64,000 bases of DNA from Saccharofermentans sp. (GTDB lineage: Bacteria; Bacillota; Clostridia; Saccharofermentanales; Saccharofermentanaceae), in contig JAKSRI010000001.1 in NCBI GenBank assembly GCA_024403695.1, positions 124,001 to 188,000 of the forward strand. Direction: 5' to 3'. Positions within the stretch are counted from its first letter, which is position 1; every line of letters begins with the position of its first letter. A program made the translations under genes and the position numbers. The notes under the pieces were generated by a model. It did not search any database. It was not told the origin of the DNA and saw only the letters and a program-made list of their open reading frames with translations. Shown piece by piece: positions 47,468 through 53,209 of this stretch.

Positions 47468-47613
47468 AATAATTTCTTTGAAAATATAGAAGGCCTTTTG
47501 TTTTGTAATTTCTTATATATCTAATTCGGTATAATTATTGTTTTGGTGAATTGGGAAGATATAGTTTTTGGGAAAATGATTCATTATATATTGTAAATAT
47601 TATTATTTAATGG

Positions 47614-47637
47614 TATTCGTAACGAATATGATATAAT
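47614..47637 (+). promoter_or_regulatory. Promoter with overlapping palindromic operator of the AbrB/HipA-like module
   Basis: Extended -10 TGATATAAT at 47629-47637. Directly upstream lies the palindrome TATTCGT-A-ACGAATA (47614-47628), filling the spacer and -35 region. That is the expected place for an autorepressor operator. The leader to the ATG at 47667 is about 25 bases. Confidence 0.6.
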
Positions 47638-47666
47638 TTCTATAATCAATATTAAGGAATTATATT

Positions 47667-48194
47667 ATGGAAACGCGTATTACAAAATTAATTGTTAATA
47701 AGCCTGGTGGAACGGCTTCATCTAATTCTAAGTCTTATAAGATTTCAATTCCGACTTCATGGGTTAATAATCTTAAGTTGAATTCATCTGATGATTCTAA
47801 AGTAATTATTTCATTTGATGGTAAATCTATAATCATTAAACCAATACAATCTATTGATGAAATTAAATCCAATAATCCTGATCATGATTTTATTACACTT
47901 AAATTCTATGATTCAGATTATCTGTGTTCATTAATTCTGGCTGACAAAACTTCAAAGAACGTTTACGTCGAGAATTATACTGACAATATTATTAAGACCG
48001 CTTTTGGTGTTAACACTAATCCGCAGTGGTCTGATTTTCTTGAATTCCTTGAAGATCGATGTATTCCTAGGACACGTGCTGGATTACAGTATTACTTTGA
48101 ATATCAAAGTATTTCTGAATATGATCCATTTGAAATAATCAGTAAAACTCAGGGTCGAATGGCGGAGGATCAGCAATGGCTGGAAATTATATGA
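47667..48194 (+). CDS. AbrB-like DNA-binding protein, putative antitoxin of HipA-like kinase
   Basis: 175 residues. Residues 20-58 (SKSYKISIPTSWVNNLKLNSSD... KSIIIKP) fit a SpoVT/AbrB swapped-hairpin DNA-binding domain. The middle (70-115) is unassigned. The C-terminal 50 residues have a compact conserved-looking pattern: FLEDRCIPRTRAG, EYDPFEIISKTQGRMAEDQQW. It overlaps the kinase-like gene by 19 bases. By analogy with HipBA, it is probably a cognate regulator or antitoxin, with an AbrB fold in place of the usual helix-turn-helix HipB. That role is inference. Confidence 0.7.
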   Translation: METRITKLIVNKPGGTASSNSKSYKISIPTSWVNNLKLNSSDDSKVIISFDGKSIIIKPIQSIDEIKSNNPDHDFITLKFYDSDYLCSLILADKTSKNVYVENYTDNIIKTAFGVNTNPQWSDFLEFLEDRCIPRTRAGLQYYFEYQSISEYDPFEIISKTQGRMAEDQQWLEII

Positions 48195-48994
48195 AAATCG
48201 AACTAATTTCAAATGATATAATTGCCGAAACATCATCAAAAGGCAATCAGGAGAAATGGTTTAATAAGGATATTAATAAATGGTATAAAATTGACCAATT
48301 TGGGTATGAAGCATTATCTGAAGTGATGACCTCTACCCTCTTAAATCTGAGCAATATAAAACTAGATACACCGTTTTCATTTGTTACATATGATATAGGA
48401 AAGTTTAACGTTCATAATAAAGAATTAACTGGTTGTTTTAGTAACAATTTCCTTCAAGAAGGATATTCAATTATCACATTAAGCACACTATATAAAAAGA
48501 TGTTAAAAACACCCTTAAGTGCTTTATTATCAAGGCTTTCCAGTGATATTAAACGTATAGAATATTTAGCAGAAACAACTGCTGAATTAACTGGTCTTAC
48601 TATGTTTCCACAGTACTTAACTTTGCTTTTTGAAGTAGATTCTATGGTTCTTAATGATGACCGCCATCTTAATAATATTGCTGTTCTAGAGCATGACGGA
48701 AAATATGATTATTGTCCTATTTTTGATAATGGAGCTGGATTTATGTCAAATGTGATGTTATCTCCTATGGATATTAATCCTAAAGCATTAATTAAAGATT
48801 TAAAAGCACGCCCTTTTAATACTACATTTAATAGACAAGTTAATGCTGCACATAAGCTCTATGGACCTCAGCTTTCGATGCCTAGATTATCAAATACCGC
48901 TATCGCTGATATGGTAGAACCATTACTTGAGTATTATCCAGAGCGAGATAGAAGTTATATAAAAGAACGTGTTCTGGCTACTTTACGCAGGTAA
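48176..48994 (+). CDS. Minimal HipA-like protein kinase, putative toxin
   Basis: 272 residues. Catalytic loop LNDDRHLNN (D162, H164, N167) and metal-binding FDNGAG (D184) match the HipA/CtkA kinase fold; WYKID (K38) and E46/E49 are candidates for the ATP-site lysine and its partner. It lacks the separate HipA N-terminal subdomain (full HipA is about 440 residues). ATG 48176 has GGAGG seven bases upstream, inside the previous gene. HipA kinases phosphorylate aminoacyl-tRNA synthetases, CtkA-type ones other proteins; the target here is unknown. AT-rich codon use suggests acquisition by transfer. Confidence 0.8.
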   Translation: MAGNYMKIELISNDIIAETSSKGNQEKWFNKDINKWYKIDQFGYEALSEVMTSTLLNLSNIKLDTPFSFVTYDIGKFNVHNKELTGCFSNNFLQEGYSIITLSTLYKKMLKTPLSALLSRLSSDIKRIEYLAETTAELTGLTMFPQYLTLLFEVDSMVLNDDRHLNNIAVLEHDGKYDYCPIFDNGAGFMSNVMLSPMDINPKALIKDLKARPFNTTFNRQVNAAHKLYGPQLSMPRLSNTAIADMVEPLLEYYPERDRSYIKERVLATLRR

Positions 48995-49100
48995 AAAAAT
49001 TTTTTTAAATTTTTTCAAAATCAATGAACCTGGAACAAACTTACTCCGTCTTATGGGTATAAAAGCAAAAACAAAAGCTTTAAACAAAGGAGATTTAATT

Positions 49101-49799
49101 ATGAAAAAGTCACTTATTCCAGTAGTTCTTATTTCAGCTATGATGCTTGCAGGTTGTTCTGTTACAGATATTAATACTAATGAATCTATATCAGAATCAA
49201 AAACAAATTCTGACACAGAATATTCTGAAGTTATTACTAACAATAATATTAGTACTGAAACAAATGTTATTCCTGTTATTAATGCTAGCAATGATAGTAA
49301 TGATGGTAATGATGGTATTGAAAGTATTGGTAATATTGATAATAACGACGAGACTACATCAGAATCTAATGATTATCCAGAATCAACTTCTAATTCATCA
49401 AAAGGTATTATTCTTGAAAGTATGACATTCCTTAATACAGACGATGGTGATGTTTACTGCTTTGACGGAGGCGATAACAGATGGGATGTTGATAATAAAG
49501 ATGGTTCCTGCTATCCATTTAAGTACTTTACTCCTACCTACACAGATGCATCCAGAATCGATATTCAGATAAATCTTGCAGATAACTCACGTACAGATTT
49601 ATTCTATTATGGAATCCTTGATAATAATGGTGATTATCTATATGTAAGTTCTTTTGGTGAGACTACAGTTACAATTAACGAGGACAGAATTCCTTCTATA
49701 TATTCTGATGGAAAGCTTATAAATGGTCAGTACTCTGTAGAACTCTACTTTAATGAAGATATTATCTTTACGGGTATTACACTATATGTAAATAATTAA
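49101..49799 (+). CDS. Lipoprotein sharing the ectodomain of the adjacent sigma factor
   Basis: 232 residues from ATG 49101 (AAAGGAG eight bases upstream; the longer open frame from 48969 runs back into the kinase gene). Lipobox MMLAGCS gives lipidated C19. Residues 20-103 are a Ser/Asn/Asp-rich linker. Residues 104-232 form a domain with DVYCFDGGDNRW, KDGSCYPFKYFTPTYTD, RTDLFYYGILD and GETTVTINE. The same domain is residues 313-441 of the next protein, 91 of 129 positions identical by hand alignment. The paired cysteines C120 and C137 could form a disulphide. I do not recognise the domain. Confidence 0.85.
   Translation: MKKSLIPVVLISAMMLAGCSVTDINTNESISESKTNSDTEYSEVITNNNISTETNVIPVINASNDSNDGNDGIESIGNIDNNDETTSESNDYPESTSNSSKGIILESMTFLNTDDGDVYCFDGGDNRWDVDNKDGSCYPFKYFTPTYTDASRIDIQINLADNSRTDLFYYGILDNNGDYLYVSSFGETTVTINEDRIPSIYSDGKLINGQYSVELYFNEDIIFTGITLYVNN
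49410..49796 (+). repeat. Duplicated domain, copy 1 (other copy 50835-51221)
   Basis: Codes for residues 104-232 of the lipoprotein and matches residues 313-441 of the sigma-factor fusion at about 70% amino-acid identity, without gaps. This is direct evidence of a domain duplication between neighbouring genes. Confidence 0.9.
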
Positions 49800-49832
49800 A
49801 ATGATTCTATATATTTGGACTCCAACTACTTC

Positions 49833-49860
49833 TTATGCTTTACCATTCGCATAAATTTTT
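49833..49860 (+). terminator. Weak possible terminator after the lipoprotein gene
   Basis: TTATGC (49833-49838) can pair with GCATAA (49849-49854), followed by ATTTTT. The stem is only six A/T-rich pairs with a ten-base loop. Confidence 0.35.
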
Positions 49861-49898
49861 GATAAACTGTAAATGATTATTTTTCGGGGTGGGAGATT

Positions 49899-51827
49899 AT
49901 GGATCAGGATACTATAAATTATCTAGTTGAATGTGCGAAACAAGGCAGCGACGATGCTTTTGCTCAACTTTATGATGCAGCCTATGGCATGGTGTATCAT
50001 GTTTGTCTTGGTTATCTTAATAATCATGAAGATGCAGAAGATACTACACAGGAAGTTTTTATAAAAATCTATAATAGCCTTAATACACTTACAGATAATC
50101 GAACATTCTTTGGATGGGCTCAGACAACAGCTATTCATAAAAGTATTGATAAACTTAGATCTCGTAAAGTGGATATTTCATTCGAAGAAAGCGTAGGCAT
50201 CGAGGACGCTTTGTTCGGTGATGATCGTATGGAGTTCCTTCCAGATACATATGTTATGCAGGAAGAACAGCGCAGAATCATGGAAAACATTCTGGTTCAG
50301 GAACTTACAGATGTTCAGTATCAGACTGTATATATGTTCTACTATAATAATCTTCCTGTAGAACAGATTGCTCAGGTTATGGCTGTACCAGTTGGTACTG
50401 TTAAGACTCGTCTTATGAATTCTAGAATTAAAATCAAAGAAGGAGTTCAAAAATATGAGAATGCAACTAATGATAAGATTACGGTTGCTGGTGCGTTCCC
50501 TTCTATTGGTATGGTTCTTGCAGGAGCTATTGCAAATACACCAATAAACTATGTACCATTTGCTGGGGGGGCAGCGATGGCTATTGGTACAACAGCTGGT
50601 GTAGGTATTACCTCTGCCCTTCTTACCAAAATTATTATCGGTGTATCCGCCGTAGGTATTCTCGGTATTGGTACAGCTGTAGCAGTAAATCACAACAATA
50701 AAAAAGCAGAAAACGAAGCGAATACAAATGTAACTACAGTTATGGAATCAGATGTATTAGCAATTAATACAGATAATGTTGTGCCTGTAATTAATACTGA
50801 TGAGTCAGATTTTGCCCCTGTTACAAGTAAATCATATACTCTTCAGAGCTTTACATTTCATGGCACTGATGAAGGCGATGTATATTGCTTTGATGGTGGT
50901 GATAATAAATGGAACGTTGATAACAAAGATGGTTCCTGCTATCCATTAAAGTACTTCACCCCTACATATACAGATACATCTAGAATTGATATTTCATTTG
51001 ATTTTTCAGCTGATTCTCGTACAGATTTGTTCTATTATGGAATTCTTGATAGCAGTGATGAATATCTTTATGTAAGTGACTATGGTGAGACAACAGTTAC
51101 TATTAATGAATCTAGAATTCCTTCCATATATTCTGACGGTAAGATTAAAGCTGGTCAGTACGTATTAGAATTATATTATGGTGAAGATATTATCTGGAAA
51201 AATATCGTAATCAACGTAAAAAATGGTAATTCCATTCCTGTAGGCGAGCTTAATCTCTCTCCAGAATATCGTGAACTTGTTAATTGTATTAAGAATCAGG
51301 CAACGACTGGTAATTATACTGATTTGGGATATGAGCATCCAGGAATCAATTATTTCCTTAATAATCATCCTGGCAAGGCAGATAGCATTAAGGTAGCTGC
51401 ATTAGATATTACTGGTAATGGCGTTCCTGAGCTGTTCTTTATGTATGAGACAGAAGATGGTGTTCCATATATTCTTGAAATGTATGAGATGAAAAATGGA
51501 AAGCCAACTATTTTCTGCAGTTCATTGAATCTTGTATATTACTATCTCCCTGGCAATACTATTCTCATGACTGACGGAACAATAAATTCACTATATTCTT
51601 ACTGGACAGGAAATGCTTCTGGTGAAGGTTTCTATGAGAAGTATGCTGTATGGGGATCCACAGATAAACTCCCATGTGCTACAGAAGATGCAGATTACTA
51701 TTGGTATTCAGCAACTAATTTGTATAGTAATGATGCAATATATCAGGGCACAGAAAGACCAACTAGTATGATTGCTTGGGATCCAGCCTGGGTTCCAGCA
51801 CAATTAGTTTCATTACCAAACGCATAA
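49899..51827 (+). CDS. ECF sigma factor fused to transmembrane helix and large ectodomain
   Basis: 642 residues. Residues 10-90 are sigma region 2 (LYDAAYGMVYHVCLGYLNNHEDAEDTTQEVF) and 130-185 region 4 (PVEQIAQVMAVPVGTVKTRL). A Gly/Ala-rich stretch (195-237) leads to one helix (241-263). Outside lie a Thr/Asn linker, the 129-residue domain shared with the lipoprotein (313-441), and a C-terminal region (450-642) with an FG-GAP-like strand pair (AALDITGNGVPELFFMYE) and a Trp/Tyr-rich end. It is thus a sigma factor tethered to the membrane with a likely sensor outside. No separate anti-sigma gene adjoins. GGGAG precedes the ATG. Confidence 0.85.
   Translation: MDQDTINYLVECAKQGSDDAFAQLYDAAYGMVYHVCLGYLNNHEDAEDTTQEVFIKIYNSLNTLTDNRTFFGWAQTTAIHKSIDKLRSRKVDISFEESVGIEDALFGDDRMEFLPDTYVMQEEQRRIMENILVQELTDVQYQTVYMFYYNNLPVEQIAQVMAVPVGTVKTRLMNSRIKIKEGVQKYENATNDKITVAGAFPSIGMVLAGAIANTPINYVPFAGGAAMAIGTTAGVGITSALLTKIIIGVSAVGILGIGTAVAVNHNNKKAENEANTNVTTVMESDVLAINTDNVVPVINTDESDFAPVTSKSYTLQSFTFHGTDEGDVYCFDGGDNKWNVDNKDGSCYPLKYFTPTYTDTSRIDISFDFSADSRTDLFYYGILDSSDEYLYVSDYGETTVTINESRIPSIYSDGKIKAGQYVLELYYGEDIIWKNIVINVKNGNSIPVGELNLSPEYRELVNCIKNQATTGNYTDLGYEHPGINYFLNNHPGKADSIKVAALDITGNGVPELFFMYETEDGVPYILEMYEMKNGKPTIFCSSLNLVYYYLPGNTILMTDGTINSLYSYWTGNASGEGFYEKYAVWGSTDKLPCATEDADYYWYSATNLYSNDAIYQGTERPTSMIAWDPAWVPAQLVSLPNA
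50835..51221 (+). repeat. Duplicated domain, copy 2
   Basis: Encodes residues 313-441 of the sigma-factor fusion, homologous to 49410-49796. Confidence 0.9.
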
Positions 51828-51855
51828 GATTTTCATAAAATTAAAACATAATAAT

Positions 51856-51883
51856 AGAGCAGCCTCTAATCTGAGACTGCTCT
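51856..51883. terminator. Terminator between the sigma fusion and metY (convergent genes)
   Basis: AGAGCAGCCTC (51856-51866) faces GAGACTGCTCT (51873-51883). The stem is complete with one G-U on the minus strand and has one C-A mismatch on the plus strand. The T tracts are short on both sides. Confidence 0.65.
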
Positions 51884-51907
51884 TCACTTTTATGCGTTAA
51901 TATTAAA

Positions 51908-53182
51908 TTAGATCTGATCCAATGCCTGCTTAATATCTGCAATGAGATCATCAGCGTCCTCGATACCAACTGAGAAACGAATGAGATCTGGCTTAACGCC
52001 AGCCTCAACAAGCTGTTCATCACTGAGCTGACGATGTGTGTGTGATGCTGGGTGCAATACACAGGACTTAGCATCTGCAACGTGTGTAACGATGGAAATA
52101 AGCTTGAGGCTATCCATGAACTTAACAGTTGTAGCACGATCACCCTTAATACCGAAGCACATTACACCACAAGTTCCCTTTGGCATATATTTCTTAGCTC
52201 TCTCATAGGAACTATTAGACTCGAGACCTGGATAATTAACCCATGCAACTCTCTCATCAGACTCGAGGAACTTAGCAAGCTTAAGAGCATTCTCACAGTG
52301 ACGTGCCATACGTACATGAAGTGACTCGATACCAAGGTGCAAATAATATGCGTTCTGTGGAGCCTGGATAGATCCAAGGTCTCTCATAAGCTGTACTGTA
52401 GCCTTTGTAATATATGCGCCTTTACCGAATTTCTCAGCATATGTGATACCGTGGTAAGACTCATCAGGTGTGCAAAGTCCTGGGAACTTATCAGCATACT
52501 CCATCCAGTCGAAGTTACCAGAATCAATAATAGCACCACCAACACCTGATGCATGACCATCAAGGTACTTTGTAGTGGAATGTGTAACAATATCAGCACC
52601 ATGCTCGATAGGACGGCAGTTTACTGGTGTAGCAAATGTGTTATCAACGATAAATGGAATACCATTATCGTGTGCAACCTTTGCAAACTTCTCGAAGTCG
52701 AGAACTGCACATACAGGGTTAGAGATTGTCTCACCGAAGATAAGCTTAGTATTAGGGCGAATCTCCTTAGCGATATCCTCATAAGAAGCTTCAGGATCAA
52801 CGAATGTGCACTCGATACCCATTTTCTTCATTGTTACACCGAACAGGTTAAATGTACCACCATAGATAGATGATGATGAAATAAAGTGATCTCCTGCCTC
52901 ACAGATATTAAATACTGCAAAGAAGTTGGCAGCCTGACCAGAAGATGTAAGCATTCCTGCAATACCACCCTCGAGCTCTGTAAGCTGAGCTGCAACGAGA
53001 TCATTTGTAGGGTTCTGAAGTCTTGTATAGAAATATCCAGAAGCCTCGAGATCGAACAAAGCTCCCATTGCATCAGAAGAATCATACTTAAATGTTGTGC
53101 TCTGATAGATTGGAATCTGTCTAGGCTCTCCGTTCTTAGGTGTGTATCCGCCGTGGACGCACTTACTGTCAATACCGTTCAT
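51908..53182 (-). CDS. metY: O-acetylhomoserine aminocarboxypropyltransferase / sulfhydrylase
   Basis: Uses O-acetylhomoserine and sulfide (or methanethiol) to make homocysteine (or methionine), with PLP. 424 residues. SGYFYTRLQNPTND, the PLP lysine in HSTTKYLDGHASGVGG, and GTFNLFGVTMKKMGIE are typical of the MetY branch. ATG 53182 has GGAGG eight bases upstream; the frame opens at a TTG at 53197. It follows pmbA by 27 bases and may be part of the tldD-pmbA transcript. No S-box or other riboswitch is visible before it. Confidence 0.93.
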   Translation of the reverse strand: MNGIDSKCVHGGYTPKNGEPRQIPIYQSTTFKYDSSDAMGALFDLEASGYFYTRLQNPTNDLVAAQLTELEGGIAGMLTSSGQAANFFAVFNICEAGDHFISSSSIYGGTFNLFGVTMKKMGIECTFVDPEASYEDIAKEIRPNTKLIFGETISNPVCAVLDFEKFAKVAHDNGIPFIVDNTFATPVNCRPIEHGADIVTHSTTKYLDGHASGVGGAIIDSGNFDWMEYADKFPGLCTPDESYHGITYAEKFGKGAYITKATVQLMRDLGSIQAPQNAYYLHLGIESLHVRMARHCENALKLAKFLESDERVAWVNYPGLESNSSYERAKKYMPKGTCGVMCFGIKGDRATTVKFMDSLKLISIVTHVADAKSCVLHPASHTHRQLSDEQLVEAGVKPDLIRFSVGIEDADDLIADIKQALDQI

Positions 53183-53209
53183 TAATATATCCTCCAATAA
53201 TTAAAATAC

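Follow-up and report, generated by a model that had tools for sequence, protein, structure and literature searches.

A putative autoregulated toxin–antitoxin module of Clostridia pairing a predicted AbrB–HipS fusion protein with a short HipA/CtkA-like kinase

A HipA-like kinase that begins without the N-terminal subdomain of HipA raises the question of what holds it in check and what kind of system it belongs to. Such a kinase is encoded in a 64,000-nucleotide stretch of DNA from Saccharofermentans sp. (GCA_024403695.1, contig JAKSRI010000001.1, positions 124,001 to 188,000), which we call the window and to which all coordinates refer. An initial annotation, made from the letters of the sequence, had described it as the second gene of a two-gene toxin-antitoxin or signalling candidate, behind a gene with an AbrB-like N-terminus. 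We therefore analyzed both genes, their promoter, their relatives and their surroundings by computation. The two genes are as follows.

47667-48194, plus strand: gene A, 175 aa, predicted AbrB/MazE-HipS fusion, putative antitoxin and autorepressor.
48176-48994, plus strand: gene B, 272 aa, short Ser/Thr kinase of the HipA/CtkA fold, putative toxin.

When the ORF coordinates and frames were rechecked, the two genes were found to overlap by 19 bases (48176-48194), as claimed, and every motif ascribed to them (PRTR, YDP and KTQGRMAED in gene A; DDRHLNN and FDNGAG in gene B) was present in the sequence. The ATG of gene B at 48176 has a GGAGG 7 nt upstream, within the AED codons of gene A. In many relatives the start is at the position of window Met6 (48191), and a start there would leave a 4-base ATGA overlap with gene A. 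The overlap of the genes suggests that A and B are co-transcribed. The GC content over A and B is 25–33%, compared with about 37–45% in the flanking housekeeping genes, and the AT-rich character reported for this stretch is thus real.

Analysis of gene B with PADLOC showed a match to PDC-M03A (1.1e-9), indicating that it is a kinase of the PDC-M03A family. Pfam HipA_C on gene B alone scored 13.9 bits, under the cut-off of 30.5, and an equally weak match was seen in 43 of 58 kinase relatives. The profile of the kinase family matched CtkA (1.4e-5) and Legionella HipT (0.022) in the PDB, where phmmer with the single sequence of B gave nothing useful. The AlphaFold2 single-chain model of B (mean pLDDT 89.5, pTM 0.87, first 23 residues uncertain) was nearest in fold to CtkA (Z 18.7, 246 residues), followed by HipT(Lp) (Z 15.0) and HipA (Z 14.4). 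The profile match to CtkA and these top folds confirmed the proposed HipA/CtkA-type kinase. Three motifs were located in it.

48230-48259, plus strand: Gly-rich loop T19-S-S-K-G-N-Q-E-K-W28, with S20, S21, G23, K27 and W28 invariant in 58 of 58 sequences.
48659-48676, plus strand: catalytic motif D162-R-H-L-N-N167, with D162, R163, H164, N166 and N167 invariant in 58 of 58.
48722-48733, plus strand: Mg-binding motif F183-D184-N-G186, with F183, D184 and G186 invariant in 58 of 58.

The TSSKGNQEKW loop, DRHLNN and FDNG as a whole are invariant or nearly so among the 58 kinase sequences, and the features homologous to the HipA kinase (Gly-rich loop, D-x4-N, Mg-binding D and the HipA/CtkA fold) are all present. 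The 272-residue chain starts at the Gly-rich loop, without N-subdomain 1, in agreement with the earlier description; HipT and the short Hip kinases start likewise. In a comparison with the loops of HipA (S150-VAGAQEKT) and HipT (S57-I-S59-GYQPK; sequences from PMC6581861), Ser20 of B aligned with HipA Ser150 and HipT Ser57, and phosphorylation of Ser20 within the loop would probably damp the kinase, as that of Ser150 does in HipA.

The AlphaFold2 single-chain model of A (pLDDT 91.1) consists of two domains.

47667-47855, plus strand: swapped-hairpin DNA-binding domain of the AbrB/MazE/SpoVT type, residues 1-63, assigned by fold and by Pfam in relatives.
47889-48191, plus strand: HipS-like domain corresponding to HipA N-subdomain 1, residues 75-175, containing PRTR, YDP and KTQGRMAED; predicted kinase-neutralising lid.

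Residues 1-63 aligned with AbrB, SpoVT, MazE and VapB in VIA-align 2 (Z 4–5 over 44–52 residues). Pfam MazE_antitoxin was detected in 44 of 62 relatives of A (best 4.2e-9), with a sub-threshold value of 0.0027 for the window copy. The fold matches and the Pfam matches in relatives support the suggestion that an AbrB-like domain takes the place of HipB. Residues 75-175 aligned with HipA (4pu4, Z 8.4), Legionella HipS (8ezr, Z 8.3, 97 residues of the 101-residue chain) and E. coli HipS (7ab3, Z 7.5). For this domain, Z values near 8 are no more than moderate; ranks 1–14 of the list were all HipA or HipS chains aligned over the whole domain, and the first unrelated row had a Z of 3.7. In PADLOC, PDC-M03B was matched by 60 of 67 gene A homologues (best 6.1e-7), and the match lies on its N-terminal, Couple_hipA half. 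Full-length PDC-M03B proteins (L114 and L115) are composed of Couple_hipA, the HipA N-terminal domain, and HIRAN, with a Hip kinase encoded just upstream. No direct Pfam match to Couple_hipA was found in the gene A family, and HIRAN gave no match in gene A, where AbrB is present in its stead. Foldseek E-values of A against HipA were weak (0.05), and phmmer of A and searches with partner profiles against the PDB yielded nothing useful. Because hhalign of the partner profiles against single HipN sequences gave low probabilities (14% and 5%), the HipS assignment is based on the comparison of folds and on the link to PDC-M03B.

As modelled, the C-terminal block of A has the HipS/HipA N-subdomain 1 fold and is not a new motif, and gene A is a fusion of AbrB/MazE with HipS, so that the lid missing from the kinase is predicted to reside in its partner. 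The initial annotation had correctly noted the kinase to be without this subdomain and had overlooked it in gene A. Its guess that the C-terminal block might be the kinase-neutralising part is strengthened by the HipS fold, HipS being the antitoxin of hipBST (PMC6581861). Single-chain HipA-like proteins of 378–390 aa are encoded at L002:757-1926 (own genome, contig C17) and in L008. Their N-terminal block resembles the C-terminal domain of the partner, and they may be natural lid-kinase fusions. In the L002 protein, which matches PDC-M03A at 4e-16, this block and a HipA_C kinase lie in one chain in the order of HipA, the alignment being only suggestive.

We then examined how widely the pair is kept. 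Single-sequence searches of viral and genome contigs with B found no relative; an alignment query did, and as a kinase profile over 84,980 species genomes it gave 551 kinase loci, of which the best 80 were retained. Nearly all of these best 80 were from Oscillospiraceae and other Clostridia. In 80 of 80, the C-terminal (HipS-like) block of A was encoded directly upstream of the kinase, and in most of them the full AbrB N-terminus was readable. The co-occurrence of the two genes in other genomes thus holds among the best 80 of the 551 loci, across many species. Elsewhere, the HipS-like block was accompanied by an XRE HTH (L005-L007, L009 and L107) or a resolvase-type HTH (L019 and L101), or had no DNA-binding domain (L018). 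These sequences suggest that the HipS-like domain and the kinase are the constant parts and that different DNA-binding domains (AbrB, XRE or resolvase-HTH) are swapped in, or none is present. A kinase tree of 40 rows placed the AbrB-type kinases in one clade (100/100), within which AbrB had been lost separately in four partners; the XRE-type kinases fell into a neighbouring clade (96/97) together with L018. The HipS-like domain co-varied with the kinase at r 0.63 (0.56 with only 60 columns), compared with r 0.32 for the AbrB domain to which it is fused, and the gap held with equal column numbers. Such co-variation is what direct contact would predict, and linked genes correlate anyway. On Bacillaceae plasmids (L010-L012 and L014), the kinase is followed by a solo HipS-like protein of roughly 130 aa, and in L010 and L012 this pair adjoins xerS. 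On Streptococcus plasmids (L013 and L015), a very divergent 147-aa partner is followed by a relative of the kinase, which is 231 aa long in L013; the surrounding genes are of conjugation type, for example one of the AcrIIA9 family, one with a PcfJ domain and one for a helicase.

The promoter region of the pair contains two elements, both found where the initial annotation had described a perfect palindrome adjoining an extended -10.

47614-47628, no strand: operator-like palindrome TATTCGTAACGAATA, perfect, 15 bp, with 7-bp arms and one central base.
47629-47637, plus strand: extended -10 TGATATAAT, directly after the palindrome.

The -35 position of the window (47609-47614, AATGGT) is poor; most relatives have TTGACT or TTGATT. 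The window contains a single copy of the 11-base core of the palindrome (0 expected), and the palindrome is single in the 2.43-Mb genome, at the promoter of the module itself. Exact ATTCGNNNCGAAT was present in 67 of 72 non-redundant AbrB-type operons, and in 3 more with one mismatch; the chance level was 18 in 36,000 Markov-shuffled upstreams. AbrB-type operons share a fixed register, in which the palindrome fills the 17-nt spacer between TTGACT/TTGATT and TATAAT. The palindrome was absent from XRE/HTH-type operons and lost in L054 and L065, whose partners have lost AbrB, while L027 keeps a decayed copy; the presence of the operator thus goes with the AbrB domain of the partner. Within the genus, the TAA/TTA-core site occurred once in each of the 4 genomes with an AbrB-type module and in 0 of 79 others. 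Since the site is single in its own genome and is found genus-wide only with AbrB-type modules, there is no sign of a regulon. In L083, the site lies 40 bases before its gene A and reads TATTGG-TAA-CCAATA, with both arms altered symmetrically, and the AbrB domain has unusual residues at 16, 17, 22 and 23, in the GGTA..KT loop. Judged from sequence, this one case is a hint of specificity co-evolution. L005-L007 share the repeats ATGAGGGTAAAA / TTACCCTCAAAATGAGGGTA ahead of their XRE-type operons, and the XRE-type partner may use these as its operator.

The surroundings of the module were also compared with those in sister species.

47468-51907, no strand: inserted low-GC segment between VanZ and metY, holding the module, a lipoprotein gene and an ECF-sigma fusion gene.

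The distance from VanZ to metY is about 4.4 kb here and about 0.2–0.7 kb in four sister genomes (L137, L139, L140 and L145). The insertion after a housekeeping operon that had been proposed is borne out by this nearly empty site. The modules of sister species sit at other genomic sites, and the distribution is patchy, with 4 AbrB-type modules in about 85 genomes of the genus. The neighbours of the best 80 of the 551 loci are diverse (serine recombinases in 7 of 139, integrases, Fic, few defence genes), and a fixed third gene was not found among the 139 neighbours. Phage cargo was considered on account of five 'Bacteriophage sp.' records with the kinase and was rejected: these are unannotated, unverified faecal scaffolds of 5–24 kb and are no evidence for phages. 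Within the inserted segment, the products of the lipoprotein gene (49104-49799) and of the ECF fusion gene (49899-51827) share a paralogous region (49% identity, 4e-65) that has no Pfam match; in the latter product, an ECF sigma factor with regions 2 and 4 is joined to a hydrophobic segment and a C-terminal domain. In L009 (Lachnospira eligens), as in the window, the module lies 3' of a metY-like gene (window 51908-53197), in differing orientations, which is possibly a common insertion preference and possibly chance.

As described above, the two domains of A, the fold and motifs of the kinase, the co-conservation of the genes, the link between operator and AbrB, and the insertion were computed here. 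In our judgement, the locus is likely to be a self-contained, horizontally spreading, autoregulated type II toxin-antitoxin module of the Hip kinase type. An adjacent, overlapping gene pair that is conserved together is a feature of type II systems, and gene B, by analogy, is probably a growth-stopping toxin. Going by its relatives as regards toxicity, target, neutralisation by the HipS domain and repression, the module would work in the following way. Free kinase B would phosphorylate an essential host protein, which in known relatives is an aminoacyl-tRNA synthetase, and growth would stop. The HipS-like domain of A would act as the missing lid, docking on B and keeping it inactive, and the AbrB domain would bind the palindrome between -35 and -10 and repress the operon, alone or as an A-B complex. 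Were A lost or titrated, the kinase would be freed and the operon derepressed.

The same kinase-lid pair could owe its selection to defence, as an anti-phage abortive-infection module, and we regard this as a serious possibility that falls somewhat short of an even chance. A phage that removed A or blocked its synthesis would free the kinase and the infection would abort, with the exchangeable N-terminal domain as the trigger. The PADLOC matches of kinase and partners are to the candidate defence families PDC-M03A and PDC-M03B, a HipA kinase with DUF3037 is a proven defence system (PMC12548924, PMC13092281), and the patchy distribution, the clean insertion site and the serine recombinases and occasional defence genes among the neighbours fit this role; however, PDC-M03 is itself only a candidate system, the adjacent genes are mostly ordinary, and no defence family occurs in more than 3 of 139 neighbours. 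A wider and distinctly more tentative reading is a modular kinase-immunity design, in which the lid-less kinase and the HipS-like lid would be constant and interchangeable modules (AbrB, XRE, resolvase-HTH, HIRAN or none, N- or C-terminal) would set the release trigger. If this were true, the trigger could be, for example, the take-over of operator or transcription by a phage, and a swap of the module would re-target the alarm.

Alternatively, the pair might be a signalling switch in which B phosphorylates A or another regulator and alters AbrB binding without growth arrest. A DNA-binding protein and a kinase do form an obligate pair here, and A has conserved Ser/Thr residues that could be phosphorylated, but the single operator at the module's own promoter leaves no regulon to control, the constant part of the partner has an inhibitory lid fold, and DNA-binding domains are lost or swapped while the gene pair persists; we consider this reading improbable. 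Very little weight is given to the idea that HipS is unrelated to the C-terminal block of A, which would then be a new domain with a convergent alpha/beta likeness to the HipA N-subdomain. The weak Foldseek and hhalign values and the lack of a Couple_hipA match would be in keeping with it, but the top VIA ranks are held by HipA and HipS over the whole domain, the HMM link to the Couple_hipA half of PDC-M03B is independent of them, the block adjoins a lid-less Hip kinase, and the single-chain L002 protein of the same genome has an alignable N-terminal block. A decayed or silent passenger without function, as the poor -35 of the window and the patchy distribution of single modules might suggest, is the least probable of all, given the open frames, invariant catalytic residues and perfect operator.

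Read as a toxin-antitoxin module, the locus is a new arrangement of known parts, AbrB-HipS within Hip kinase systems. None of the ten gene organisations surveyed by Gerdes et al. 2021 contains AbrB (PMC8262856), and our literature search found no paper joining AbrB with HipA or HipS. The missing lid of a large, unannotated Clostridia kinase family is hereby placed, by prediction, inside the partner protein, and hundreds of 'hypothetical protein' pairs become a testable, putative toxin-antitoxin family with a conserved operator. The results also suggest that the neutralising core conserved in such systems is the HipS lid and not the DNA-binding domain. The module occurs as a mobile unit in gut Clostridia and, owing to its conserved promoter switch, is open to direct test.

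Finally, we compared the module with known Hip and AbrB systems. In hipBA, HipA is full-length with N-subdomain 1 in the chain and HipB is an HTH protein, neither of which is found here. The MazE/AbrB antitoxins share the swapped-hairpin DNA-binding domain and autoregulation (putative here), whereas the C-terminal part of gene A is a predicted HipS-like lid and not a MazF-binding tail. CtkA of Helicobacter pylori, the closest solved kinase fold and the best profile match, is described as a pro-inflammatory kinase needing a type IV secretion system, and no AbrB-HipS partner for it is described in the literature found. The HipA kinase with DUF3037 (HipAD / DS-6 / PDC-M66), anti-phage and toxic without its partner (PMC12548924, PMC13092281), is likewise a two-gene Hip kinase system with a non-HipB partner, but that partner is of another family and no sequence link was found. 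hipJS, a short kinase with a solo HipS, shares kinase and HipS with the module, and the Bacillaceae plasmid loci look so arranged; the window partner differs in having a DNA-binding domain and lying upstream. hipIN consists of the HipI kinase and HipN (HipS-like + HIRAN; Gerdes et al. 2021, PMC8262856), and PDC-M03 corresponds to it, because L114 and L115 combine Couple_hipA and HIRAN with a Hip kinase just upstream. The short kinase of the window is related to PDC-M03A and its partner has the HipS-like domain of PDC-M03B; unlike in hipIN, where the partner is downstream and carries HIRAN, the partner lies upstream, here and in the best 80 of the 551 loci, and that of the window has an N-terminal AbrB and no HIRAN. 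hipBST (HipB + HipS + HipT; E. coli O127 and Legionella), whose kinase targets TrpS, resembles the module in its lid-less Hip kinase, in a HipS-like (here putative) neutraliser apart from the kinase chain and in an upstream DNA-binding partner, but the module has two genes instead of three, AbrB/MazE is fused to HipS in place of an HTH HipB, and the kinase fold is nearer to CtkA than to HipT. In hipBST, HipS is the antitoxin and neutralises HipT (PMC6581861, PMC10627512), and neutralisation here may differ in detail from the plugging of the HipT site by HipS Trp65. Because the defining features tested, three genes with an HTH for hipBST and HIRAN with a downstream partner for hipIN, are absent, we file the module under neither, and propose by analogy that it works like both.
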